Origin: a virus
Strand: one strand, 5' to 3'
DNA: 46,928 bases
Virus record (IMG/VR): IMGVR_UViG_3300033064_007809
Coordinates: 1-46,928 of that record
Part shown: piece by piece, positions 16,997 through 30,897 of the stretch
Position numbering within the stretch: the first letter of the stretch is position 1
Layout of the letters: the number at the start of each line of letters is the position of its first letter
Notes under the pieces: model-generated
Database searches by the model: none
What the model was told of the DNA's origin: nothing
What the model saw: only the letters and a program-made list of their open reading frames with translations
Translations under genes and position numbers: made by a program

Positions 16997-17746
16997 GTGC
17001 CCAACAACGTCCTGCTCATCTCAGACATCCATTCTAGAGACGATGCTCTCTACAAACTAATTGAATCTGAGTCGGTCAATGCGGCACTTAACAACGGCGA
17101 ACATTTAGTTTTTTTGGGCGATCTTTCAGACTGTAGAGATAAACTTTACAGGCCTGGGTGTTCTTTCCTTCGCGTCTATGAGCTTGTTAAACAGCTCTGC
17201 GACGAAGGCTATGCCACCCTACTCCACTCTAACCACGCTCAAAATCTCACCGATCACTTTATTGGCCGTAGAAAAGTCAGAAAAGGAATCGTGGGGTTTA
17301 AGCAGACTTTAGAAGAACTCGAGACTTTAGACGAACCTACTCGAGACGAAATGATCTCGTGGTTAGATTCTAGGCCTCTCACATATACCTATAAATCCGA
17401 GAACGGAAAGACATATAAAATAGCTCATGCTTTTTACCAAAAAGACTTTGAGTATAAATACCTAGAGACGGAGACGCTTACCCCCGACGAAATCGATCTT
17501 ACCCTCCGCGGACGAAAGTCCTCATGGATGTGGCAGGGACGCCAAATTACAAAACGCACAGGATTCTGGCGTAATTCTAAGCGTTGGGGGGCCGTCGGTT
17601 CTGATGTTCTTTGTTCGGGTCATTGGGCCCAAATTATTCACCAACCAAACTGCATAGTCAACGATCCGGGTGGCGACGCCACTGACGGCACTCTTGGCAT
17701 TTTTAATTGTAACTCTCACTCCTTCACCATTCACACCGCACCATGA
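16997..17746 (+). CDS. Calcineurin-like metallophosphoesterase
   Basis: A 249-residue protein from a GTG codon. It carries the ordered metal-binding motifs of the calcineurin-like family: D-I-H at residues 9-11, GDLSD near 42, SNHA near 80 (the usual GNH with Ser for Gly), a His in KIAHAF and SGHW near 215. The spacing is that of phage PPP-type phosphatases such as lambda PP and of ApaH-like diadenosine tetraphosphatases. Substrate cannot be told from sequence: phosphoprotein, Ap4A-type nucleotides and RNA ends are options. The stop overlaps the nrdB-like start by 4 bases, so it leads a nucleotide-metabolism operon. Confidence 0.75.
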   Translation: MPNNVLLISDIHSRDDALYKLIESESVNAALNNGEHLVFLGDLSDCRDKLYRPGCSFLRVYELVKQLCDEGYATLLHSNHAQNLTDHFIGRRKVRKGIVGFKQTLEELETLDEPTRDEMISWLDSRPLTYTYKSENGKTYKIAHAFYQKDFEYKYLETETLTPDEIDLTLRGRKSSWMWQGRQITKRTGFWRNSKRWGAVGSDVLCSGHWAQIIHQPNCIVNDPGGDATDGTLGIFNCNSHSFTIHTAP

Positions 17747-18744
17747 GCAGTATTCTTGAGCATAATAAAATGATTTTTAAAACCGACAACGGTTTTGATT
17801 ATCCGCAATTTTACCAGTACTACGAGAACACCGTAGCCTCTGTTTGGCGGCACCAAGAGGTGGCAATGGAGGGAGATCTACGAGATTGGCAGTTTAACTC
17901 AACACCTGACGAAAGGGCCGTTATAGCTGGAATTTTAAAGGGGTTTGTGAGCGCCGAATTGGGAATTGGATGTTACTGGGCAAATGAAGTATGCCGAATT
18001 TTCCCCAAGCCAGAGATTCAAGCAATGGCCAGAGCGTTTTCATTTTTTGAAACAATTCACGCTGCCGCCTACTCCTACCTCAATGATGTCCTAGGTCTTA
18101 ACGAATACGAGGAGTTCATCAACGATCCAATTGCCTGCTCAAAGATTGAGACTTTTTTCCAAAAGTATTCCGATAAGGTCTCTTTGGCAGTGTTCTCTGG
18201 AGCCGGTGAGGGTGTTAGTTTGTTTAGTTCCTTTGCGGTACTGTTGAGCTTCAACAAAGATGGTAGGTATAAGGGCCTAGCACAAATCATCTCCTGGAGT
18301 GCCATCGACGAGGCAACGCACTCCGAGGCAGGATGCGCTTTGTTTAGGTGCCTTGTGGAAGAGACTGGGCTTAGTGACTCTGACCGAGAGGAAATCTATG
18401 ATGGCTTCCGTCTCATTCTTGAGAAGGAGTTTGCCTTCATTGACCATATTTTTAACTCGGCGCATATCGCCTCGGTTGATGCCGAAGAACTGAAAGCATA
18501 TATTACTAATAGGGCTAATGAACGTTTACTTACGCTCGGCCTTGAGCAGATCTTCCACCTTTCCACCGAAGAACTCTCTAAGGCAAAACTATTAGCCGCT
18601 TGGTTTGATCCAATGATCAAAGGTGCGAGTAGCGTAGATGCTTTTGCACAAAGCAAGTCCGGCGATAACTATATCGCCAAACCCACTCAGGATTTTATGA
18701 GCGTTGATTTAACTTGCTTAGATCTTGAGACATGCGTAGCCTAG
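17743..18744 (+). CDS. nrdB: Ribonucleotide reductase class I small subunit (R2)
   Basis: A 333-residue ferritin-like protein. Aligning by spacing with E. coli R2 gives metal ligands E72, E103, H106, E156, E190 and H193 and the radical tyrosine Y110 (motif ETIHAAAY). The first ligand is Glu, where E. coli R2 has Asp84; all other spacings (31, 3, 34, 3) match exactly. It works with the large subunit encoded at 19445 to make dNTPs for phage replication. The start overlaps the phosphoesterase stop. Two small late-type genes are set between this gene and the large subunit, an interruption of the usual pairing. Confidence 0.9.
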   Translation: MSSILEHNKMIFKTDNGFDYPQFYQYYENTVASVWRHQEVAMEGDLRDWQFNSTPDERAVIAGILKGFVSAELGIGCYWANEVCRIFPKPEIQAMARAFSFFETIHAAAYSYLNDVLGLNEYEEFINDPIACSKIETFFQKYSDKVSLAVFSGAGEGVSLFSSFAVLLSFNKDGRYKGLAQIISWSAIDEATHSEAGCALFRCLVEETGLSDSDREEIYDGFRLILEKEFAFIDHIFNSAHIASVDAEELKAYITNRANERLLTLGLEQIFHLSTEELSKAKLLAAWFDPMIKGASSVDAFAQSKSGDNYIAKPTQDFMSVDLTCLDLETCVA

Positions 18745-19444: not shown

Positions 19445-21364
19445 ATGTCCGAAGCCCAAGTCCCCTCCTGGATGTCCCAGGAAGCAATAGATACTTTGTC
19501 GCGAGGATATCTCAGCGCAGGAGAAACACCACGTGGTATGTTTGAGCGTGTTGCCAAAACTGCCGCCAAGTACCTCGCCAAAACGCCGGGCATTGAGCAG
19601 GATATTTTTGAGATATTTTGGAAGGGGTATATTGGTGGGGCCTCTCCTGTACTGAGCAACTTTGGGGCGAATTCTGGTCTCCCGATTAGTTGTTATTCTA
19701 ACCATATCTCAGACTCCGTTCCTTCCATCTACTCCCATTTGAAGGAGTCAGCAGCCCTCTCCCAACATGGCGGAGGAGTGGGAACGTTTTTTGGGGATAT
19801 TAGGCCCGCCGGAGCGCCGATCTCATCGGGCGGAGGCAAGAGCACAGGGGTGGTGCCTTGGATGAGACAATTTGACCAATGCGCCTGTGTGGTTAGTCAG
19901 GGTGGGGTGAGGAGGGGAAGTTTTGCTCTATATCTTCCCATCGACCACCCTGATCTTCTAGAAGTCCTCCGCACCAAGGATCATTCACAGGGCGACCCTA
20001 GAGATTTCATTGATAGCAATATTGCCGTGACTATTACCGATGAGTGGGCGGAGAGTCTGCTTACAGGAGATCTAGAGAAGAAAAGGATCTTTGGCGAGGT
20101 GCTCAAAATGAGACTTGTATCAGGGTCACCATACATCATTTTTATTGACAATGCCAACCGCGCCAATCCGGAATGCTATACACAACGGGGCCTAAGCGTC
20201 AAGCTCTCAAATTTATGCAGCGAAATTTTCCTCCACACCGACGAAAACCACACCTTTGTTTGTGTTCTTTCATCGCTCAACCTTGCCCGTTGGGAGGAGT
20301 GGAAGGACTGGAAGGGGCCAAATACGGGTAAATCTGTGCCGGAACTTGCAATATATCTTCTCGATGCCGTGGTTGAAGAGTTTTGTCATAAGGCCGAGCG
20401 TATCACCTCAATGGGGAGGGCGGTAAGGTTCGCTCGCAAATCCCGTGCCCTTGGCCTAGGTACCATGGGCCTACATGCTCTCTATCAGTCCAAAGGGTTG
20501 CCTTTCGCCTCGCCCGAGGCCCGGCAACTTAACACCGAGACTCACAAATTTATCAAGGAAAAGGCCCTCAAAGCCTCGCGGGACATGGCCGCCACTTACG
20601 GCGAGCCGGAATGGTGCCAAGGCACCGGCCTTCGCCACACTCACCTTATGGCAATTGCACCCACAAAGTCCAACTCAGTGATTTGTGGGGCGGGGAGCGA
20701 AGGAATTGAGCCCATTGACGCAAATTACTACGTTGCCAAACAGGCCAAGGGCACTTTTATTCGCAAAAACAAGTACCTCGTTGAGTATCTCGAGCAGAGC
20801 GGCCATAACACAGACGAGACTTGGGAATCCATCATGGAGTTTAGGGGATCAGTGCAGCATCTCAAGTTCTTAGATGATCGCGCCAAGGAGGTTTTTAAAA
20901 CCGCCCGCGAAATCGATCAGTTTGAACTGATTTACCAGGCCTCAGATCGCCAAAAGTTTGTTTGCCAGGGCCAGTCCCTTAATCTTTTTGTTGATCCTGA
21001 GGCCGCACCTGAGTATCTTTTTAGACTCCACCTAATTGCCTGGAAGATGGGTCTAAAATCGCTCTATTATCTTAAAAGTAGTTCTTTGCTCGTTAAGAAG
21101 CAGCGTCAAGGAGCCACCAAGACGGCCAAAATTGTGACCAAGGAGGCTTGTCCTTATTGCTCCATGGCCAAGTCTTTGCTTAAGAGCCAAGGTTGGGCGG
21201 TTGAAGAGATAGATCGTTCGAAGTTTCCGAATTCCGAATGGGTGTGGAAAACCGTGCCTCAGATCTGGCTCAATGGCCAACACATAGGTGGCTATGCAAA
21301 TCTTGCAAAAAAACTTGGCAAGGGAGAAAAATCTTACGGTGAGTGTGCGGCTTGCGAGGGTTGA
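19445..21364 (+). CDS. nrdA: Ribonucleotide reductase class I large subunit with inserted glutaredoxin domain
   Basis: A 639-residue protein. The reductase core (about 1-555) lacks the N-terminal ATP cone and has the active-site set: C83 and C273 as the redox pair, N256-x-C258-x-E260 at the radical site, and Y541-Y542 for radical transfer. Residues 561-625 are a complete glutaredoxin: CPYC at 569-572, TVPQIWLNG, then GGYANL. The protein ends GECAACEG, which looks like the C-terminal swinging-arm cysteines (C634, C637) of class I enzymes. So the glutaredoxin is placed between core and tail, and could reduce the tail in the same chain. It pairs with the R2 gene at 17743. Confidence 0.9.
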   Translation: MSEAQVPSWMSQEAIDTLSRGYLSAGETPRGMFERVAKTAAKYLAKTPGIEQDIFEIFWKGYIGGASPVLSNFGANSGLPISCYSNHISDSVPSIYSHLKESAALSQHGGGVGTFFGDIRPAGAPISSGGGKSTGVVPWMRQFDQCACVVSQGGVRRGSFALYLPIDHPDLLEVLRTKDHSQGDPRDFIDSNIAVTITDEWAESLLTGDLEKKRIFGEVLKMRLVSGSPYIIFIDNANRANPECYTQRGLSVKLSNLCSEIFLHTDENHTFVCVLSSLNLARWEEWKDWKGPNTGKSVPELAIYLLDAVVEEFCHKAERITSMGRAVRFARKSRALGLGTMGLHALYQSKGLPFASPEARQLNTETHKFIKEKALKASRDMAATYGEPEWCQGTGLRHTHLMAIAPTKSNSVICGAGSEGIEPIDANYYVAKQAKGTFIRKNKYLVEYLEQSGHNTDETWESIMEFRGSVQHLKFLDDRAKEVFKTAREIDQFELIYQASDRQKFVCQGQSLNLFVDPEAAPEYLFRLHLIAWKMGLKSLYYLKSSSLLVKKQRQGATKTAKIVTKEACPYCSMAKSLLKSQGWAVEEIDRSKFPNSEWVWKTVPQIWLNGQHIGGYANLAKKLGKGEKSYGECAACEG

Positions 21365-21415: not shown

Positions 21416-21898
21416 ATGGCAGCTACAGAATTTGATTACGTAAAGTTCATCGATGAGGGGTTTGAGTCCCAACAAAAATATGCCAAAAAGGTTGGTGAGG
21501 CAGGGCCATTGGACCCCGATCTCGACCTTAAAACCAGATATGCCAAAGTCATTGAGCATTTTGGACATATGATGGAGGAAGCAATTGAAGCCCGCGTATA
21601 TGTCCCGCGGCGAAGCTGGAAAAATGGCGAACGGAGTTACTTAGACAATGATGAAATGCGCCAGGAGTTTATTGCTGAACTTTATGACGTTCTGCTTTTT
21701 CACCGGGCCATTTTGGCCTATGCGGGCATAACTGGCGAAGAGTTTGCAAAAATTGCTGCTAAAAAACAGGCCTATAATCAAGTTAGGCCGGATCATAATG
21801 TCAATGGCAATGCGCCAGTCGTCGATTCTCCGGCCGCTGAGCTTCAAGGCCTTTGCCCCTCCGCCGTTCTTCTATCTGATTTTGCCCTCGGGCGATAA
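21416..21898 (+). CDS. All-alpha NTP pyrophosphohydrolase (dUTPase/MazG-like)
   Basis: A 160-residue helical protein. It shows the metal-binding pattern of the dimeric dUTPase/MazG superfamily: EEAIEARVYVPRRSWK (E-E-x-x-E), then E...ELYDVLLF (E-x-x-D) and a C-terminal K-x-x-x-N-x-x-R-x-x-H. These enzymes cleave (d)NTPs to (d)NMP and pyrophosphate; the PRRSWK segment is typical of the dUTPase side of the family. Here it could keep dUTP low and, by supplying dUMP or dCMP, feed the synthase at 28757. The C-terminal 30 residues after the His are unmatched. Confidence 0.7.
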   Translation: MAATEFDYVKFIDEGFESQQKYAKKVGEAGPLDPDLDLKTRYAKVIEHFGHMMEEAIEARVYVPRRSWKNGERSYLDNDEMRQEFIAELYDVLLFHRAILAYAGITGEEFAKIAAKKQAYNQVRPDHNVNGNAPVVDSPAAELQGLCPSAVLLSDFALGR

Positions 21899-21900
21899 TT

Positions 21901-22083
21901 ATGGTCCTTCCACGCCAGCGCCTCTTCCAAGACCTACCCGACGACTCCTGTAGAAATTGCGCTGGGCGCGGTTTCCTACTCTTTGAGAGAGCGGATCTGG
22001 ATAATAAAATAATGCCCAATGAAGTAATTGAATGCGGAGTATGTAATGGTACAGGCAAACGTAAAACAGATAAATGCGAATAG
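21901..22083 (+). CDS. Small DnaJ-type zinc-finger protein (60 aa)
   Basis: Two CxxCxGxG motifs, CRNCAGRG and CGVCNGTG, about 25 residues apart, the paired zinc-ribbon pattern of DnaJ central domains. With only 60 residues and no J domain it can bind one zinc. The start is 2 bases after the previous stop; the end overlaps the HNH gene. Role unknown; such stand-alone fingers may help fold or deliver partner proteins. Confidence 0.6.
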   Translation: MVLPRQRLFQDLPDDSCRNCAGRGFLLFERADLDNKIMPNEVIECGVCNGTGKRKTDKCE

Positions 22084-22531
22084 CCAGGTTCTGGTGCTTA
22101 ATGCGTCATACGAACCTCTCAACATTGTGTCGTGGAAGCGTGCCATCATCCTTTTGCTCAAAGAAAAAGCGGCATTCATCTCCGCTAAAGTCATCCGCCT
22201 TGTAGAGTATATTAAGGTGCCTTTCTCTAAAATCAATGCAATGAGACCTTCTCGAAATATGATTTATAAGCGAGACGGGCATAAATGCCAGTATTGTGGC
22301 TCGACAAGAAAACTAACAATTGACCACGTAGTACCAAGGAGTAAGGGAGGCGAGGATTCCTGGTCCAATATGGTTGTAGCATGTTCTTCTTGCAATACAC
22401 GCAAAGGAAACACACTTCTCGAGCAATCGGGGATGAAGTTGGCGCGAAAACCCACCGCCCCCCTCAATAAGTTCGTATTTGCTCTTTGGGACTCTAATAA
22501 TCCTGAGTGGCAAAAATATAATTTTATTTAA
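22046..22531 (+). CDS. HNH endonuclease, cyanobacterial type
   Basis: I choose the ATG at 22046, with GGAG about 9 bases before it; a TTG 18 bases upstream is in frame. The protein (161 residues) matches a well-known HNH family: LVLNASYEPLNIVSWKRA, then IKVPF and PSRNMIYKRDGHKCQYCG, then LTIDHVVPRSKGG and WSNMVVACSSCN. The two CxxC pairs bind structural zinc and D-H / N / H form the nuclease site. Members occur in many cyanobacteria and their phages, as possible homing or packaging nickases. It overlaps the zinc-finger gene by 38 bases. Confidence 0.85.
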   Translation: MVQANVKQINANSQVLVLNASYEPLNIVSWKRAIILLLKEKAAFISAKVIRLVEYIKVPFSKINAMRPSRNMIYKRDGHKCQYCGSTRKLTIDHVVPRSKGGEDSWSNMVVACSSCNTRKGNTLLEQSGMKLARKPTAPLNKFVFALWDSNNPEWQKYNFI

Positions 22532-23104
22532 ATGTCAGATCTATCCGTCACATTATTTAGTTTTGGAAAGCACAAACAGTCAATGGGGAATTTAGTTCTC
22601 TTGTGGTCTTGGCTTGAGCCGTTTTTGGACTGGTTTTTAAACGCATTTAACGTCCACATACTTAGTAGGCATAGAATTAATGCCGATTTACTTCGCAAAA
22701 TTTTTGACGAACTAGATGCTTATTGGTTAAAAAATTCGGAATCCAAGGCCTATTCCGAAGCAGATGCCCGGCTCATCATAATGCTCTTTTTGCAATCAAT
22801 CGATGACGGTGAGTTGGACCGAAAAGAACTCCTTGCACTCACGGACTTCATTCAACGCAAGTGGGCGCCAGAGATTGCACTTGGCAAAACCCTCTCCTAC
22901 ACCGAAGAAGTAATAGAGGCACGTATTGAGGCCACGGTGGACCAGGCAGTACAACTTTACGAAAAAACAAACATGGAGAAGCCGCTCACCCCAGAGGACT
23001 TTATTGCCAATACCGCAGAGATCATCTACCATGAGCCGGATGGAAGTACTGCCCAGGCCCTCCTTGGTGGAATGATGGAGATTAGGAATAAACTTGTATT
23101 TTGA
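22532..23104 (+). CDS. Hypothetical protein (190 aa)
   Basis: The ATG follows the HNH stop directly. Near residues 20-45 a hydrophobic stretch (LVLLWSWLEPFLDWFLNAF) may be an amphipathic or membrane-associated helix. The rest is predominantly helical and acidic, with DDGELDRKELLALTDFI resembling an EF-hand-like helix pair but lacking a complete loop. No family recognised. Co-directional with neighbours; ends 1 base before the GIY-YIG start. Confidence 0.5.
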   Translation: MSDLSVTLFSFGKHKQSMGNLVLLWSWLEPFLDWFLNAFNVHILSRHRINADLLRKIFDELDAYWLKNSESKAYSEADARLIIMLFLQSIDDGELDRKELLALTDFIQRKWAPEIALGKTLSYTEEVIEARIEATVDQAVQLYEKTNMEKPLTPEDFIANTAEIIYHEPDGSTAQALLGGMMEIRNKLVF

Positions 23105-23105
23105 G

Positions 23106-23759
23106 ATGAAAAAATATCATTATGTTTATTATTCTTATGAAGAGTGGGGTCGTGGGTATATCGGCGTTCGTACATCTAAATGCTTACCTGAAGAGGATAC
23201 TAGATACCTCGGTAGTTTTACGGATAAAACTTTTAAACCTGCAGAAAAAATAGTTTTATATGTATTTGATACTAGAAAAAAAGCATTAAATGCTGAAATA
23301 ATTCTACATGACTTTTATAAAGTTCACATTAATCCGCATTTTGCTAATAAATCAAAAATGATTTCGTCAGGATTTTGCACGGAGGGAATTCCTCTTTCTT
23401 TGGAACATCGTCAAAAAATTGGTAAAAAAGTAAAAGGGCTTTTTGCTGGAGAAAAGCACCCTATGTTTGGTAAAAAGCACTCTGAAAAAACTAAAAAACT
23501 AATTTCTAAAGATAGCAAGGCTAGAGGAGTTCCAAAGCATCATATTGAACTCTTACATCAGTTAAGGAGAAATCCCTACGTATGGAATAACGCGCATACA
23601 ATCTATCTAGCATGGACGAAAAATAATAGGCCAGGAAGTTATAGACTCTCTAAACTTTTAGATGGAGAATACACTCATAAAAATTTAGAGAGAATTTGTC
23701 AAAAGTTTAAATCAGGGTGGGTACCGACCGAATTTACAAACTCCAAATCGGTTTCATAG
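23106..23759 (+). CDS. GIY-YIG homing endonuclease with NUMOD3 motif
   Basis: I take the ATG at 23106. The N-terminus has the GIY-YIG-like pair YVYYSYEEWGRGYIGVR, the catalytic Arg in VRTSK and the Glu in NAEIILHDFY. Near residue 120 there is a NUMOD3 DNA-binding repeat (GEKHPMFGKKHSEKTKK). These are features of Seg-like free-standing homing endonucleases. The gene is clearly more AT-rich than its neighbours, as expected for a recent arrival. Its 3' end overlaps the convergent methyltransferase by 26 bases. Confidence 0.75.
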   Translation: MKKYHYVYYSYEEWGRGYIGVRTSKCLPEEDTRYLGSFTDKTFKPAEKIVLYVFDTRKKALNAEIILHDFYKVHINPHFANKSKMISSGFCTEGIPLSLEHRQKIGKKVKGLFAGEKHPMFGKKHSEKTKKLISKDSKARGVPKHHIELLHQLRRNPYVWNNAHTIYLAWTKNNRPGSYRLSKLLDGEYTHKNLERICQKFKSGWVPTEFTNSKSVS

Positions 23760-24954
23760 GGTCTTTAGCAACCACATTACTTTGCCTTAAAATTTTGTAG
23801 GTACCATCAGGTTTGAGTTCAGGATCTATCCAAGTCCTATTGCCATCAAGAGCTTGAATTATCTCTTCTATCCAGTTAGCGGCTGTGCATGCCGGAACAT
23901 TTTGTGCAATTACATTACTACTTTTGGTGGGAATATGGACTTTGGCGGCATAATCGTCAGGAAAGCCCATCAGAGCTAATGCTTCAGACGTGATTAACCA
24001 ACGGTCTTCGTAGGGATGTACTAACATCGGCATAGTTTTCCACATTAAAGCGGCCGAGCGTTGCCACGCGAGCTTCATGCTCCCATCCATGATATTTTTG
24101 CCCGCTTTTTTCTTATCTAGGGTAAAATTGAGCCATCGATTTGCCCGCTCATCTTTGACAACCCTGCAGGCCTCTTCAAGCCAGCCCGAGTCGTAGATTA
24201 CGTTCCAGACACTTACCATGCGGTTAGAGGCTACTGCTTTCAAAATATCTTGTTTTGTCGAGCCTCTGTACTTCGATTCGATAAATTGCCAAAGTGGATC
24301 GGAGGAAGGCGCAGACTTATTGCTGACGGGTTCTGATGGGGCAAATCTCCCACTCCTTAGGAATTCGTGAAAAGGCACGTAGGGCTTCTTGATTGGCTCG
24401 AGGACAGGGACCTCAACTCCTTGCCACAAAAAGAAGAATGAGCGGGTTCTCTCTTGGGGGATCCCGTGGTTTAGTGATGTGGTCTTTACCAAACTCATAG
24501 TGTAGCCATGGCGCTGCGCAAGTTCATTGATCCGTTCGGCGAATACTTCCCCCATCTTAGAGTAGAGTGCCGGGGCGTTTTCCACAATCATCGCCCTGGG
24601 CTTAATTTTGGACATTGCAAACTCGGACCCATTGAGCATGTGCATATTGCTCGGTGCACTGCATCCTCGCGGATTATTTACCTTATCGCCGGATGTCGTA
24701 TTTCCCATGCTCAAACCCGCGCAGGGCGGAAGACAGGTCACAATATCCACACGCTGAGAAGGATATTGTCCCTCATCCAGCTCATAATAGGGCACTTTGT
24801 CGAAGTACTTCAGGCAATATTGGTCATTGGCGCCAAAAACACTCCCCCACGACGCAATCCATTCTGGCGGTTTGCCAAGTGCCTTGGTGGCGCCAAGCAC
24901 GCTTCCGCCGATGAGCGGGATTACGTGCCCGTGGGTGTAGGGTTGAGTGGTCAT
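23734..24954 (-). CDS. C5-cytosine DNA methyltransferase-like protein
   Basis: The only minus-strand gene between 8 and 47 kb. It has the C5-MTase motifs in order: a PPC loop (LPPCAGLS, catalytic Cys, motif IV), VENAP (motif VI, usually ENV), IPQERTRSFFF (motif VIII QxRxR), LMGFPDDY and a QNVPA ending (motif IX-X). The usual N-terminal SAM motif FxGxGG appears as VIPLIGGSVLG. The target-recognition region lies around residues 205-310 and looks short. It may protect phage DNA from host restriction. Its opposite orientation suggests separate acquisition or timing. Confidence 0.8.
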   Translation of the reverse strand: MTTQPYTHGHVIPLIGGSVLGATKALGKPPEWIASWGSVFGANDQYCLKYFDKVPYYELDEGQYPSQRVDIVTCLPPCAGLSMGNTTSGDKVNNPRGCSAPSNMHMLNGSEFAMSKIKPRAMIVENAPALYSKMGEVFAERINELAQRHGYTMSLVKTTSLNHGIPQERTRSFFFLWQGVEVPVLEPIKKPYVPFHEFLRSGRFAPSEPVSNKSAPSSDPLWQFIESKYRGSTKQDILKAVASNRMVSVWNVIYDSGWLEEACRVVKDERANRWLNFTLDKKKAGKNIMDGSMKLAWQRSAALMWKTMPMLVHPYEDRWLITSEALALMGFPDDYAAKVHIPTKSSNVIAQNVPACTAANWIEEIIQALDGNRTWIDPELKPDGTYKILRQSNVVAKDPMKPIWSL

Positions 24955-25015: not shown

Positions 25016-25876
25016 ATGATTATGGCAGAGGTGTTTAATCCCGTTCTTATGGTCCCAGATGGGTGGGGTTTTGCTCCCGAGGTCGCCTGGTTGGATTTTG
25101 CCGAGTCGGAGTCGTTTGCCGCGGAACTCGTTCCAGCCACCGTCAAGGCCACGGCTCAAGTAGGCACCACATATCGCAACCCGACCACAGGCGTTACGCT
25201 TCAAAAGCAACCATCGGGGCGGTGGAAAAAGACCGGCTCAGAAGTAAAAAATTCTCCCCCCAGAGATCCTAAAGCCCCGCCAACTCACTACCCCGAACGC
25301 ACGTCTGACTCCATAACCATTGGCTTCGGCCGCTTCAACCCTCCTACCATTGGCCACCAAAAACTTATTGAGCACATTGCCAAAGTGGCCAAGGAAGGCA
25401 ATTCCGACTACAATATTTTTGGCTCCCACTCCCAAGACCCTAAGGAAAACCCACTCGGCTCAGGTACAAAAACATCTTACATGAAAGAGATGTTCCCAGA
25501 CCACGCCGATAACGTCATCTATGACCAAAACGTTAAAAGTGTCCTCGATGCGCTTGAGGGGGCACATAAACGTGGTTACAAAGTGGCCAATGTTGTGGTA
25601 GGATCTGATAGAATGGAAGAGTTTAAAAAGATTGCAAACAAATACAATGGTGAGGGAAAAAAATATAACTTCCAAGCAATCAACCTTATCTCCGCGGGCG
25701 ATCGCGATGAGAGCGCCGGCGACGAGGTTAGCGCAATGTCCGCCTCGAAGTTACGTAAGGCTGCCACAGACGGAGATTTTAGCACCTTCGCAAGGGGAAT
25801 TCCCAATACGCTCTCTGCAAGGCGCAAAAAAGAACTGTATGATGAACTACGGGTCTCAATGGAGTTTAAAGACTAG
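25016..25876 (+). CDS. VPDGW-tagged nucleotidyltransferase (NMNAT/cytidylyltransferase-like)
   Basis: AGGAG sits 8 bases before the ATG at 25016. Residues 13-17 are V-P-D-G-W, the tag variant. A linker region (residues 50-95) has a small module TTYRNPTTGV followed by SGRWKK. The nucleotidyltransferase domain fills residues 98-286: GFGRFNPPTIGH (T/HxGH site, 111-114) and MSASKLRKA, the counterpart of the ISSTxxR loop. Phages of many groups carry this domain; its substrate is usually given as NMN or CTP-linked, but is not settled. The 95-residue N-terminal extension is not needed for catalysis, and fits a sorting region. Confidence 0.75.
   Translation: MIMAEVFNPVLMVPDGWGFAPEVAWLDFAESESFAAELVPATVKATAQVGTTYRNPTTGVTLQKQPSGRWKKTGSEVKNSPPRDPKAPPTHYPERTSDSITIGFGRFNPPTIGHQKLIEHIAKVAKEGNSDYNIFGSHSQDPKENPLGSGTKTSYMKEMFPDHADNVIYDQNVKSVLDALEGAHKRGYKVANVVVGSDRMEEFKKIANKYNGEGKKYNFQAINLISAGDRDESAGDEVSAMSASKLRKAATDGDFSTFARGIPNTLSARRKKELYDELRVSMEFKD
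25864..25873 (+). promoter_or_regulatory. GTTTAAAGAC candidate late promoter
   Basis: An exact copy overlapping the last codons (Phe-Lys-Asp) of the nucleotidyltransferase gene, 24 bases before the ATG at 25898. Confidence 0.45.
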
Positions 25877-25897
25877 TGTGATTAGGCGTTGGTACGC

Positions 25898-28447
25898 ATG
25901 ATAGACAAAGTTTTTAAGCCCGAGGATTGGGGCGTTGCTGATAAAAATGAGTGGGTGGCGGATAAGTTGTTGTTCGGTGAGGCCACAATGCCTGCTCTTG
26001 AAGGGCGGGATGTTGTAGGTTTTGTGGAGAGCATAGATTTTGCCGTTGAATTAGCTCCTGGCAAACCCGATGGCGTTCAGCAGTGGACAGATAAGGGTGG
26101 CAGACCCGTTAAATTCAATCCGTCCACAAAGTCCTGGTACCATATCGACCAATCTGCAAAGAAGGATCTTCAAAAGAAATTAGATACTCAGGGGCAACAG
26201 GATAGAAGACCCGAGCCTAAAAGCAAAGAAAAACCTCGCCCCACACCTTCATCCGAACAAGAGGAAAGACCAGTGCCTTCTCCAGTGCCGGCGGAGGCAC
26301 CATCAGTTCCTCCTCAGGGGGGAGATGAATCGAAACCCTCTTCACTCCCAGGCGAGAGACCTATTGGTCAAAATTTCTCCTTAGAATTAACAGAGACAAA
26401 TCAGCAGTTTTTAGATAAAATAAAATCCGAAGGTAAATGGAATGGCACGAACTTTATCGATCTAAGGCAAGTTATAGGAGATCAAACATCAATTCCGCCA
26501 AGGCACCTAGACGCTCTGTCTAGAATGCTAGTTACTTCGGGCTCCGATAAAATAGGTTGGTCGTATTTTGGTGGAGATGTGCCAGGTGGTGCTGGAAAAA
26601 TCTTTGCACAGGGCGGAGAGCTTATGACCCTGGCGTTTACTGCACTGCAGGAGCAGCAGTCTAAGAAACTCCAGTCCGTTATATCAGAGGTGCTGAAAGC
26701 GCAAAAAGAAAGAAAAGTGAAAGGCCAGATAATTACACCCGACTGGTTTCAAGCAGCACAGGACAACAAAACTGCTATACTTAACTCAATCAAGTCGAAT
26801 AAGGGAGGTGATGTATCTATTGTAGGAGGAGCCTGGGATACTAAAAACGAAGTTGAAGAGCTGGGAATGAAAGACTATGACACCGAAAAGGGATTTTCTA
26901 CGGACATTTATCTAAGACTCTCTGACGGATCCCTTCACCAGCCCTCTCTTAAAAAAGACACAAGAGTAAACTTCTTAAATTCTGGTGCTGGCCAATACGG
27001 TCAATTTATCGTGACGGCGCATGCAGAAAACCCAGATTCCCCGCACCAAGAGCAGGCTAAGTCTTATCTTGAAGCTCAAAAGATAAGGCTATCTATAATG
27101 AATGAGCTGGGAGTAGTAGCCCCACGTAAAAAAGATGGACCAGAAATAAATGACAAATGGAAAAAAGCTATCTCCGTAATTGAAAACACAGAAAAGGAAT
27201 CGTGGGCACAGCCCGATCAGTCTTATGACCAAAAGGTATACGCTAATAATCAAGATAAAAGGTTAAGAAGCGTTCTCTCTAAAAACATAGATACAATAAA
27301 ACAATTTGATTTATCCTCTATACCTACGGATAAAAATGCCATTTTCTCCTCTCTTCTTAAAAGAGAGGAAATAGACCCTGAAGATCTAAAAATAAAAGGT
27401 GCAGATTTTAAAAAACTAAGCTCAGTTGATAAACAGAGAGTAACTGAATCTAGAGAAAAAGCTAAGCAATTAGAATCAGAAGCGTTAGAAACCGCTACTG
27501 ACAACTCGGAATTGATTAAAAAGGCACAAAAAGAGATGCAAAATGCTGGAACAGACTGGGCCGGATTAGTAGACAAAATTGCCTCTGCTAAAAGCCTAAG
27601 TCGTTCTACAAGAAAACTAATCCACCTTGCGGCAATTAATCAAAACGTTGAAGGATATAAAGATGAGGTTCAACAAGCTCACAAAAACTTTATCTCTAGT
27701 GCAGTAGAAGGCATAAACACCAACCCGTCTCTACGGGACGGAATGCTTAGAGAGCTCAAAAATAACTTCCCTATCAGAGACGTTGCTGAAGGGAAAGAAG
27801 TGATGGCCATTGGAGATCTTTCCTTTGATACTCAGACCTGCAGAGATATTTTTGGTACAACTGACTTTGAACAGATTAAAACTGGATTTAAAGTAGCCAC
27901 TGATGAAAGTGGAACTCCCTACCTCGGTTGGGTTGGCAAAGCTGGCAGCGGTCCTCTACTCCCCCTAGCAAAAATTAACGTTAGAGAGGACGGGGTGGGA
28001 TATGGGTCTTCAATAAAGCACGAGATGGTACTTCATCCGGATTTTGCTAGTAGACTTCGCCAAGCAAATGCTAAGGAGTACGGAACTGGTAGCGGAAGAA
28101 CCTTCTCAGAATTAGAGTTTGAAGAAATGAACAAAAAACCATCTTTTGAGGACTATATGGAAATCCTAAGGGCCAAACGGGCCGCTTCCGCCTCTAACAA
28201 CGAGGCCATGGGCACCAATTACGCCGATGGCACAGTATTCTACAAAGGCAAAGCGCTCGGCCGTTGCCCAGCAGGTACAACCCGCTCCGGCAAAACCTGT
28301 GTACCAGGGGCAGGAACAACGCCCATGGCCCCAGGATACAAAACTCCAGACCTAGGTGGACTATCACGGGCCCAAGTCCAAGCCCTATCCAAAGCTCGCT
28401 CCACCGAAGATATTATTAAAGCACACAAAAAATCTAACAAACAATGA
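25898..28447 (+). CDS. Large tag-variant protein of unknown function (849 aa)
   Basis: Start at ATG 25898; a TTG three codons upstream is in frame. Residues 7-11 read K-P-E-D-W, a divergent version of the VPEGW tag. Residues about 50-85 contain a module PGKPDGVQQWTDKGGRPV that recurs in the ADP-ribosyltransferase at 41385. After a Pro-rich linker (residues 100-160) comes a large folded region. Near residues 350-375, TDIYLRLSDGSLHQPSLKK resembles the D...(S/E)xK core of PD-(D/E)XK-like nucleases, but this is weak. A C-terminal C-x-A-G-T-T-R-S-G-K-x-C segment may bind metal. Probably a late, virion-associated protein. Confidence 0.55.
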   Translation: MIDKVFKPEDWGVADKNEWVADKLLFGEATMPALEGRDVVGFVESIDFAVELAPGKPDGVQQWTDKGGRPVKFNPSTKSWYHIDQSAKKDLQKKLDTQGQQDRRPEPKSKEKPRPTPSSEQEERPVPSPVPAEAPSVPPQGGDESKPSSLPGERPIGQNFSLELTETNQQFLDKIKSEGKWNGTNFIDLRQVIGDQTSIPPRHLDALSRMLVTSGSDKIGWSYFGGDVPGGAGKIFAQGGELMTLAFTALQEQQSKKLQSVISEVLKAQKERKVKGQIITPDWFQAAQDNKTAILNSIKSNKGGDVSIVGGAWDTKNEVEELGMKDYDTEKGFSTDIYLRLSDGSLHQPSLKKDTRVNFLNSGAGQYGQFIVTAHAENPDSPHQEQAKSYLEAQKIRLSIMNELGVVAPRKKDGPEINDKWKKAISVIENTEKESWAQPDQSYDQKVYANNQDKRLRSVLSKNIDTIKQFDLSSIPTDKNAIFSSLLKREEIDPEDLKIKGADFKKLSSVDKQRVTESREKAKQLESEALETATDNSELIKKAQKEMQNAGTDWAGLVDKIASAKSLSRSTRKLIHLAAINQNVEGYKDEVQQAHKNFISSAVEGINTNPSLRDGMLRELKNNFPIRDVAEGKEVMAIGDLSFDTQTCRDIFGTTDFEQIKTGFKVATDESGTPYLGWVGKAGSGPLLPLAKINVREDGVGYGSSIKHEMVLHPDFASRLRQANAKEYGTGSGRTFSELEFEEMNKKPSFEDYMEILRAKRAASASNNEAMGTNYADGTVFYKGKALGRCPAGTTRSGKTCVPGAGTTPMAPGYKTPDLGGLSRAQVQALSKARSTEDIIKAHKKSNKQ

Positions 28448-28756: not shown

Positions 28757-29596
28757 ATGTCTTGTTTGTCTTTTGACTATCAGTATATTAAAGTTGCGCG
28801 AGAAATCCTTGAAGAAGGGACCAATGTAGTAGGACGTATGGGCCTTCGTTACAAACAGGTATTTGGTCAAAATATCAAGGTGGACTTACGAGATGGCTTT
28901 CCGGCCCTAACGCTTCGTAAAATGCCCGTACAAAACCTCTACCGCGAATTTTGCTGGGATATTAACGGAAATTTTGAAGTGGCCAGTCTCGGCCCAGCCA
29001 AACATTTTTGGGAGTTTTTAGCAGATGCTGAGGGTCGTCTCCCCGGAGCATATGGCAGGTCTTGGAGGGCTTGGCCTACAACCTGCCCTGAACAGAATAT
29101 GGAGTGGGAAGAGTTTCATAATGAGCCTTTCGACCAACTCAAGTGGATCTGGGAACAGCTCCGCACAAACCCCACCAACCGTCAATTAGTATTGCAAACG
29201 CTCAACCCTTCTTATGAGCACTTAGTATGTCCTCCATGTCATACTGGAATTGTTTTTAGCTCTGAGGGTAAGCATTTAGATATTCTAGTAACGGCCCGCA
29301 GTAACGACCTTGCCGTAGGTTTGCCGTTAGATATGTTTCGCTATGCTCTTCTTTGTACCAAAATGGGGCAAGACGCCTCACTCATCCCCCGTTATGTAAT
29401 GTTCGCCTCGGCCAACAATCACATCTATGAGCAAAACGAGCGTGCCATTTGCTCCATCATCACCAACGTACCCATCTCTTCTTGCGATGTATGGATCAAC
29501 AACGAGAAGCCAATCTTCGACCTCGATCCAGAAACCGATTTTGAGTTGGTTGATTATGCCTCGCATCCAGGAGTTCGTATGGAAGTGGCAAATTGA
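28757..29596 (+). CDS. Thymidylate-synthase-family enzyme, predicted dCMP hydroxymethylase or methylase
   Basis: A 279-residue member of the thymidylate synthase fold. The nucleophile is C161 (PPCH); phosphate binding comes from R181-S-N-D; NNHIYEQN fits the H-x-Y loop. The residue that reads the pyrimidine base is Asp192 in GLPLD, where thymidylate synthases have Asn (GLPFN, N177 in E. coli). In T4 dCMP hydroxymethylase that position is Asp, and the Asn-to-Asp change in thymidylate synthase shifts preference to dCMP. So the likely product is 5-hydroxymethyl- or 5-methyl-dCMP, implying modified cytosine in phage DNA. The 4-base overlap links it to the 5' nuclease. Confidence 0.75.
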   Translation: MSCLSFDYQYIKVAREILEEGTNVVGRMGLRYKQVFGQNIKVDLRDGFPALTLRKMPVQNLYREFCWDINGNFEVASLGPAKHFWEFLADAEGRLPGAYGRSWRAWPTTCPEQNMEWEEFHNEPFDQLKWIWEQLRTNPTNRQLVLQTLNPSYEHLVCPPCHTGIVFSSEGKHLDILVTARSNDLAVGLPLDMFRYALLCTKMGQDASLIPRYVMFASANNHIYEQNERAICSIITNVPISSCDVWINNEKPIFDLDPETDFELVDYASHPGVRMEVAN

Positions 29597-30897
29597 AACC
29601 CCCAATCCACTCCTTACCCGACTACTCCAACACCACCACCCTCCTCGAAGATGTATTTGAGCCAACACTCGATCCTGTTGTCCCGATTTGCATTATTGAT
29701 TTCAAGGTGGCGGCGCATTTTATCTGTAACTATGCGGAAACCGCTAATGACGTGGCAGATGGCAACGAGGAAGAACTGAGGCAAATCCTCCGGGCCATGT
29801 GGGCCTATAGACTCAACCGCGGGCCAGATATGCTCGCTCCTTTCCCTTTCACAGCGCTTATCACCGATGATCTTAAAGGACCTCTTACTGAACAATTTGC
29901 CGAAGCTTCTGCCTCTGGAACGGGCTATTGGCGCCACATCGAAGCGCATAAGCTTGAAATGGCAGAGTATAAAGGAGGCCGCGGAGAAAAAACGAGTTTC
30001 TTTAATCTTGTCCAGGAGGAGGGATATAGATATATAGGGGCGCCCGGCTCCACATTCCACTATTTTGCCAAAGAGTTCTTTGAGGCCGATGACATTGCAG
30101 GCCACGTTTGCAGACTTAAACGCGCTGCAAATAAACGTTCTAAGTTGGCAAAAAGACAGATGATTTTGCACACTGTCGACGGAGATTGGCAGGGTCTTTG
30201 CTCCGACACCCACGGTATCTATTGGGCAAATACCGGACCCTGGATGCCTCGGCTTCGCTCAGAGCGCGAAGTCTGCGACTACTACCTGCGTAAGGAGGGC
30301 ATGCATATTACATCGGCAAGGGGATGCTATGACTTTAAGGTTGAGTATGGTGATCTTGGTGATAACCTCTATCCTGGCACCCCGCTCAGGTTCTTTGATC
30401 TCTATGAGCCGGATGATGAGTGGAAGTTTGATAAGCAGGATACCGACTCACTGACCAAGATGCTAAAGTCTACGGCCCCGTCCAATCGCCCAGATCATAT
30501 GAAATCTGCCAAGATGTTCCTGCTTAAAAGGGGGATATTTCTGCCCGAGATTGGAACGACCTGGGAAGAAGATAAGACTCTGTTTTTTCGACGCGCTAAA
30601 AAGTCCCGTGAGGCCAACTCTCACAAAGAACTCAGGGGGAAGAATAGGACACTGTGCCTTGAGAAGATCTCCGATCCTTCAACCTTTGAGAAATGCAAAG
30701 AATTAGCCAAGGAAGATCTTAAAACTCACTCCGAAATAAAAAAAGAGACCGAAGTTCTTCGTGTCTGTCGTGAGAAGGAAGATAAGAAGTGCATCCGGGA
30801 ACTGAGAATCATTCTCAGAGGGCTTAAGGACTTACGCGTCTCCATCAAAGACCAACTGGCGCAGTTGCTAGGTAACAAATTGGCCCCTGGCCCTTGA
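29593..30897 (+). CDS. PIN-domain 5'-3' exonuclease (flap-nuclease-like)
   Basis: TTG start overlapping the previous TGA; 434 residues. The order of motifs fits the FEN/5' nuclease family: an early Asp strand (CIIDFK), a segment YWRHIEAHKLEMAEYKGGR corresponding to W-R-x-x-x-x-x-x-Y-K, then EADDIAG (E164, D166, D167) and a D196-G-D198-W-Q that corresponds to the D-x-D-x-x-Q metal site. Such enzymes remove RNA primers and flaps in phage replication. The C-terminal 100 residues are highly charged and helical. A terminator follows after 25 bases. Confidence 0.65.
   Translation: MKPPIHSLPDYSNTTTLLEDVFEPTLDPVVPICIIDFKVAAHFICNYAETANDVADGNEEELRQILRAMWAYRLNRGPDMLAPFPFTALITDDLKGPLTEQFAEASASGTGYWRHIEAHKLEMAEYKGGRGEKTSFFNLVQEEGYRYIGAPGSTFHYFAKEFFEADDIAGHVCRLKRAANKRSKLAKRQMILHTVDGDWQGLCSDTHGIYWANTGPWMPRLRSEREVCDYYLRKEGMHITSARGCYDFKVEYGDLGDNLYPGTPLRFFDLYEPDDEWKFDKQDTDSLTKMLKSTAPSNRPDHMKSAKMFLLKRGIFLPEIGTTWEEDKTLFFRRAKKSREANSHKELRGKNRTLCLEKISDPSTFEKCKELAKEDLKTHSEIKKETEVLRVCREKEDKKCIRELRIILRGLKDLRVSIKDQLAQLLGNKLAPGP

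Follow-up and report, generated by a model that had tools for sequence, protein, structure and literature searches.

The gene at positions 28757..29596 (+) of the window, by which we mean the complete 46,928-nucleotide stretch of viral DNA analysed (IMG/VR record IMGVR_UViG_3300033064_007809), encodes a protein of 279 aa with the thymidylate synthase (TS) fold, in which the residue that reads the base is Asp instead of Asn. Genes of this kind, in viruses that infect freshwater and ocean cyanobacteria, are called thymidylate synthase in the databases; the product is most likely a mislabelled cytosine-modifying enzyme. We hold with high confidence that its substrate is dCMP and, somewhat less firmly, we favour a dCMP 5-hydroxymethylase that would feed hydroxymethylcytosine (hmC), plain or glucosylated, into the phage DNA. 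The Asn/Asp base switch itself is textbook knowledge; what is new here are the subfamily and the host group in which it occurs.

Fold and active site of the enzyme

The reading frame is genuine, with an ATG start and no open frame on the opposite strand. The protein matches PF00303 over residues 9-278 (profile positions 2-265, E 3.2e-51) with 174.5 bits, far above the curated cut-off of 24.3, and each TIM5-like genome tested has one such match. It belongs to phrog_160 (E 7e-59), which also contains the dCMP hydroxymethylase (dCH, gp42) of T4, and it scores higher against ordinary TS than against T4 dCH. An AlphaFold2 model (59-sequence alignment, pLDDT 92.2, pTM 0.91) superimposes on E. coli TS (4gev) with a Z of 35.4 and an rmsd of 1.5 Å over 260 residues; T4 dCH is not among the 50 structural-comparison matches listed, from which nothing was concluded. 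Near-identical DNA was not found in a search of a phage collection. The closest annotated relatives are from S-TIM5 cyanophages (genus Aurunvirus, 74-75% identity), and the guess in the initial annotation that automatic pipelines would call the gene a thymidylate synthase was right: the 75%-identical S-TIM5 gene (gp076) is labelled 'thymidylate synthase' or 'ThyA'. This gene and its relatives are orthologues with the same gene order and signature residues, and no substantive difference from the window enzyme was seen.

The likeness to E. coli ThyA extends over the whole length of the fold (Z about 34-35). The catalytic set of TS is kept (E. coli numbers in brackets): the nucleophile Cys161 (146; 29237..29239, +, by alignment), Glu64 (58), Arg181 (166), Asp184 (169), His222 (207) and Tyr224 (209). 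Also kept are His147, Trp80 and the TS-type C-terminal tail, which is missing in T4 dCH. The differences are Asp for Asn177, Leu for Trp83, Cys for Leu143, Ala for Gln165 and Asn for Asp205. The first had been noticed in the initial annotation and is borne out: Asp192 (codon GAT, 29330..29332, +) aligns unambiguously with Asn177 (motif ARSNDLAVGLPLD versus QRSCDVFLGLPFN), so that the protein has the residue expected of a dCMP enzyme at the position where ThyA proper has Asn. An Asn-to-Asp exchange at this position converts TS to a dCMP enzyme, according to studies cited in PMC8670742; the reverse exchange in T4 dCH (D179N) leaves negligible activity (PMC6400193). Two residues show the strongest association with modified cytosine in phage DNA from the environment, and position 177 is one of them (PMC8670742). 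Position 147 has likewise been associated with modified contigs (PMC8670742); it is His in the enzyme and uninformative as a marker here.

Specificity for the deoxynucleotide is predicted from Ser182 and Arg142, which align with Ser167 and Arg126 of E. coli TS, the pair responsible for the preference for deoxyribose (PMC5175136). The CMP hydroxymethylase MilA shares the TS fold and the Asp at 177 but carries Ala and Lys at these ribose-reading positions (PMC5175136), which the enzyme does not.

The comparison with T4 gp42, to which the initial annotation had likened the enzyme, holds for the base switch and fails for the water-activating residue. Common to both are the TS fold, the Asp for the base-reading Asn, a smaller residue at Trp83 (Leu88 in the enzyme, 29018..29020, +; Val85 in T4 dCH) and, for the closest relatives of the enzyme, genomes with a DNA alpha-glucosyltransferase (AGT). 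The sequences are only 20% identical, and the enzyme differs in having His for the Thr after the catalytic Cys, a TS-type tail, Gly for Ser94 and Cys for Asp145. In T4 dCH the Asp three residues before the nucleophile (position -3), together with Ser94 and Tyr96, activates the water molecule from which the hydroxymethyl group arises, and it has been proposed as a signature (PMC6400193). The dUMP hydroxymethylase of SPO1 has Asp at -3 as well, and an enzyme from a Microbacterium phage also has an acidic residue there. The enzyme has Cys158 at this position (29228..29230, +; Leu143 in E. coli TS), invariant across the two groups of Asp-type enzymes described below; being neither Asp/Glu nor Leu, it makes the enzyme neither a T4-type hydroxymethylase nor of the TS type by this test. 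Two residues before the equivalent of E. coli Tyr94, where T4 has the Ser of Ser94-x-Tyr96, there is Gly in the TIM5 group and Ser in the second group. Both Trp83 and Leu143 have been discussed for access to the TS active site (PMC6400193).

Conservation and phylogeny of the Asp-type enzymes

Searches of IMG/VR yielded 20 further TIM5-like loci. The Asp is invariant in 23/23 TIM5-like sequences, the window included, and in all 16 sequences of a second group, likewise cyanophage-like, at 37-41% identity. Its codon varies synonymously between GAT and GAC, and this conservation rules out Asp192 as a chance variant or a sequencing error. Asn is found in 80/80 independently retrieved canonical viral TS, a sample that was collected with canonical TS queries; the count hence reflects conservation within TS proper and says nothing of how common Asp is across viruses. 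Sixteen of these 80 also end in Asn, and a terminal Asn was therefore dropped as a subfamily signature.

The departures from TS are common to both Asp groups (Leu at Trp83, Cys at Leu143, Ala at Gln165 and Asn at Asp205), as are the surroundings of the nucleophile (Cys-Pro-Pro/Gly-Cys-His), which sets them apart as a distinct subfamily, probably separate from the T4 gp42 lineage. The likelihood tree unites the two groups in a single clade (98/95), which falls on the side of TS and apart from T4 dCH, and the free tree separates this clade from gp42 with supports of 99/94 and 97/88. An arrangement that joins the clade with T4 dCH is worse by only 3.5 log units. The AU test rejects neither this arrangement (p-AU 0.123) nor a single origin for all Asp-type enzymes (p-AU 0.29 and 0.25). 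Judged from the tree, an independent gain of Asp in the cyanophage clade is favoured.

The second group was first met as L102 (CALGUV010000039.1), a contig labelled as a Microbacteriaceae MAG. Its gene order (polymerase, kinase, Asp-type TS) is the same as that of its IMG/VR relatives. One of these, the 150-kb contig G023, carries photosystem II D1-type genes, ThyX and a primase of the family that is found in S-TIM5. The use of L102 as evidence for a second host phylum was withdrawn in view of the photosystem II D1-type genes on the relatives' contig; L102 is probably a misbinned cyanophage, and the second group is best taken as another group of cyanophages.

Asp at 177 was met outside these groups as well. 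Stenotrophomonas phage DLP4, which is related to the 5-methylcytosine (5mC) phage Xp12 and has a dihydrofolate reductase (DHFR) gene in its genome, encodes an enzyme that shares it but has Asn at -3 and another C-terminus and is distant in the tree. A TS-fold protein at 6001-6624 of L225 represents a different Asp-type line: besides Asp at 177 it has Leu at 143 and Gly for Ser167, and its grouping with the DLP4 enzyme is weak. Microbacterium phage Triscuit (L067, 578-1486 and 1486-2283) has two adjacent TS-fold genes, both annotated thymidylate synthase; one is canonical (Asn, Leu) and the other has Asp at 177.

Genes for nucleotide supply and putative DNA glucosylation in related genomes

Genes for ThyX occur with both Asp groups (7/11 TIM5-type records searched), and S-TIM5 also encodes a dCMP deaminase; dTMP can thus be made without the Asp-type enzyme. 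In S-TIM5 the ThyX gene comes ~20 kb after the TS gene, at about the point where the window record, which is a fragment, would stop. DHFR was not found in TIM5-type records but is present in T4 and in 5/5 other TS-bearing phages tested, and this pattern fits a reaction that leaves tetrahydrofolate. A stronger argument, that the host has no DHFR and a methylase is impossible, was dropped, because the Synechococcus elongatus control was positive for PF00186.

Within the window, genes for the small (17743..18744, +; phrog_86, 1.9e-64) and large (19445..21364, +; phrog_84, 3.2e-150) subunits of ribonucleotide reductase are followed directly by a MazG-like nucleotide pyrophosphohydrolase (21416..21898, +; phrog_12184, 5.1e-6), a candidate dCTPase with EExxE and ExxD metal motifs and 63% identity to S-TIM5 gp087. 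In most second-group loci, the gene directly upstream of the enzyme encodes a P-loop kinase with a relationship to thymidylate kinases of phages (phrog_761, up to 6.6e-8). Its homologue in S-TIM5 is gp113 (26-32% identity, E ~1e-18 to 1e-14 in TIM5-type records), which by itself is weakly recognised as a kinase (0.0027). By their sequences, the MazG-like protein and the kinase-like gene would fit the supply of dCMP and the phosphorylation of the product.

The enzyme gene overlaps by 4 bp at its stop with the gene at 29593..30897 (+; phrog_26716), whose homologue at the syntenic position in S-TIM5 (55% identity) is annotated as flap endonuclease/polymerase; the PF02739 match of the S-TIM5 copy is below the cut-off. 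Upstream, a C5-cytosine DNA methyltransferase homologue (23734..24954, -; PF00145, 9e-15; 68% to S-TIM5) has PPC, ENA and QERTR motifs and is a conserved neighbour in TIM5-like genomes, including G001 and G006. Complete substitution at C5 would leave this methyltransferase without a target, so the replacement of cytosine may be partial; alternatively, host DNA may be the target, or the role of the methyltransferase may be a different one. Between it and the enzyme lie a protein with a cytidylyltransferase-like domain (25016-25876, +; phrog_395, 1.4e-58) and an 852-aa protein without family match (25889-28447, +); both resemble the S-TIM5 genes at the syntenic positions over short stretches only. 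HNH and NUMOD3-type homing endonucleases (22028-22531 and 23094-23759, both +) are also found near the nucleotide metabolism genes.

The S-TIM5 protein gp011 is a homologue of DNA alpha-glucosyltransferase (PF11440, 37.3 bits for a cut-off of 25; phrog_2888, 2.9e-150) and is labelled as such in the S-TIM5 record itself. AGT was found in every TIM5-type isolate tested, S-TIM54, S-TIM61 and S-TIM66 included, and at 24 IMG/VR loci; in the TIM5-like contigs G009 and G013 it is encoded together with the Asp-type enzyme. Between T4 AGT and six cyanophage sequences 55 residues are invariant, including H114, D115, R204 and E306, which belong to the UDP-glucose and catalytic site. The frame around AGT in G013 (L104, 111247-112521) is reported with one in-frame TAG, which may reflect a sequencing error, a genuine break or read-through. 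AGT was not found within the 46.9-kb window record, outside which the AGT, ThyX, deaminase and kinase genes of the relatives all lie. The gene order in S-TIM5 is topoisomerase, AGT, psbA, and G006 starts inside psbA; AGT is missing from G006 because of the contig end. Most other contigs are fragments, and their lack of AGT therefore carries little weight. In the second group no T4-type AGT was found. None of 77 chosen ORFs of G023 matched a glycosyltransferase Pfam, a selection that left out many minus-strand ORFs and does not amount to absence.

Proposed reaction and its alternatives

The initial annotation had also predicted dCMP as the substrate, and the Asp at 177, the pair Ser167/Arg126, the separate ThyX and the strict conservation together support this well. 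In the reaction that we propose, Cys161 would attack C6 of the base, Asp192 would pair with N3/N4 of cytosine and protonate N3, and a methylene group would be transferred to C5. The exocyclic methylene would then be quenched by water and not by hydride, because the replacement of Trp83 by Leu and of Leu143 by Cys would alter the water-excluding gate of TS. The dCMP would come from breakdown of dCTP by the MazG-like pyrophosphohydrolase, and hydroxymethyl-dCMP would be raised to the triphosphate by the thymidylate-kinase-like protein and host enzymes and inserted into DNA by the phage polymerase. A T4-type AGT may finally add glucose and protect the genome from host nucleases, while dTMP would be supplied separately by ThyX and dCMP deaminase.

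We infer that the product is the hydroxymethyl and not the methyl form, even though the published Asp/Glu signature at -3 is lacking: enzymes of the AGT family need a hydroxymethyl base, and their presence therefore speaks for hydroxymethylation. From the genome context these viruses probably carry glucosylated hmC DNA. The earlier prediction of modified cytosine is thus strengthened by the AGT of the relatives and by the MazG-like and kinase-like proteins, and weakened by the Cys at -3 and by the position of AGT outside the window. Further points that count against a hydroxymethylase of this pathway are the Gly two before Tyr94, the TS-type tail, the better score with ordinary TS, the location of ThyX, deaminase and kinase beyond the record, the lack of a second-group AGT and the adjacent C5 methyltransferase. 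Modified cytosine in these phages was not reported in the open literature searched; the 2012 PNAS paper on the S-TIM5 genome may contain an earlier remark.

A dCMP methylase, which would retain the hydride step of TS and form 5-methyl-dCMP, as has been proposed for Xp12-type phages, appears unlikely, but is the best of the alternatives. The Asn229Asp mutant of L. casei TS reportedly makes 5-methyl-dCMP. The full TS-length chain with its C-terminal tail, the retained His147 and Trp80 and the lack of an acidic residue at -3, which the DLP4 enzyme shares, would all suit a methylase. Such an enzyme would yield dihydrofolate, yet DHFR was found in DLP4 and not in TIM5-type records; moreover, both Trp83 and Leu143 are replaced, and an AGT, which requires a hydroxyl on the base, would be useless on 5mC.

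If the enzyme is a dCMP hydroxymethylase, the hmC of the window phage might also be bare or tailored otherwise than with T4-type glucose. We consider this improbable: AGT is found neither in the window nor in the second group, which shares the enzyme, but it is present in every TIM5-type isolate tested and in two TIM5-like IMG/VR contigs, and of the remaining contigs G006, at least, stops shortly before the AGT locus. A normal thymidylate synthase, still acting mainly on dUMP in spite of the Asp, would agree with the family score, the fold, the automatic label and, as general nucleotide supply, the neighbouring ribonucleotide reductase genes, but is very improbable given that Asp at 177 occurs in 0/80 canonical viral TS and is invariant in the enzyme's own groups, that ThyX co-occurs and that no DHFR was found in TIM5-type records.

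The preferred reading, a dCMP hydroxymethylase, can be taken a step further, though tentatively and with less than even confidence: the clade may be a third, cyanophage-specific lineage of pyrimidine hydroxymethylases, in which Cys replaces the acidic water activator of T4 and SPO1 or the gate is simply open, and glucosylated hmC genomes may occur in a group of marine and freshwater cyanophages. The swap of Cys for Asp offers a natural test of the choice between water and hydride in TS-fold enzymes, and S-TIM5 is in culture. On the preferred reading the ThyA label on these genes would be wrong, which is a testable rule. Hypermodified-cytosine DNA is best known from the T-even phages of enterobacteria; if the preferred reading is true, TIM5-type cyanophages carry it too, which would bear on their escape from host restriction and CRISPR and on the under-representation of modified DNA in amplified viromes.
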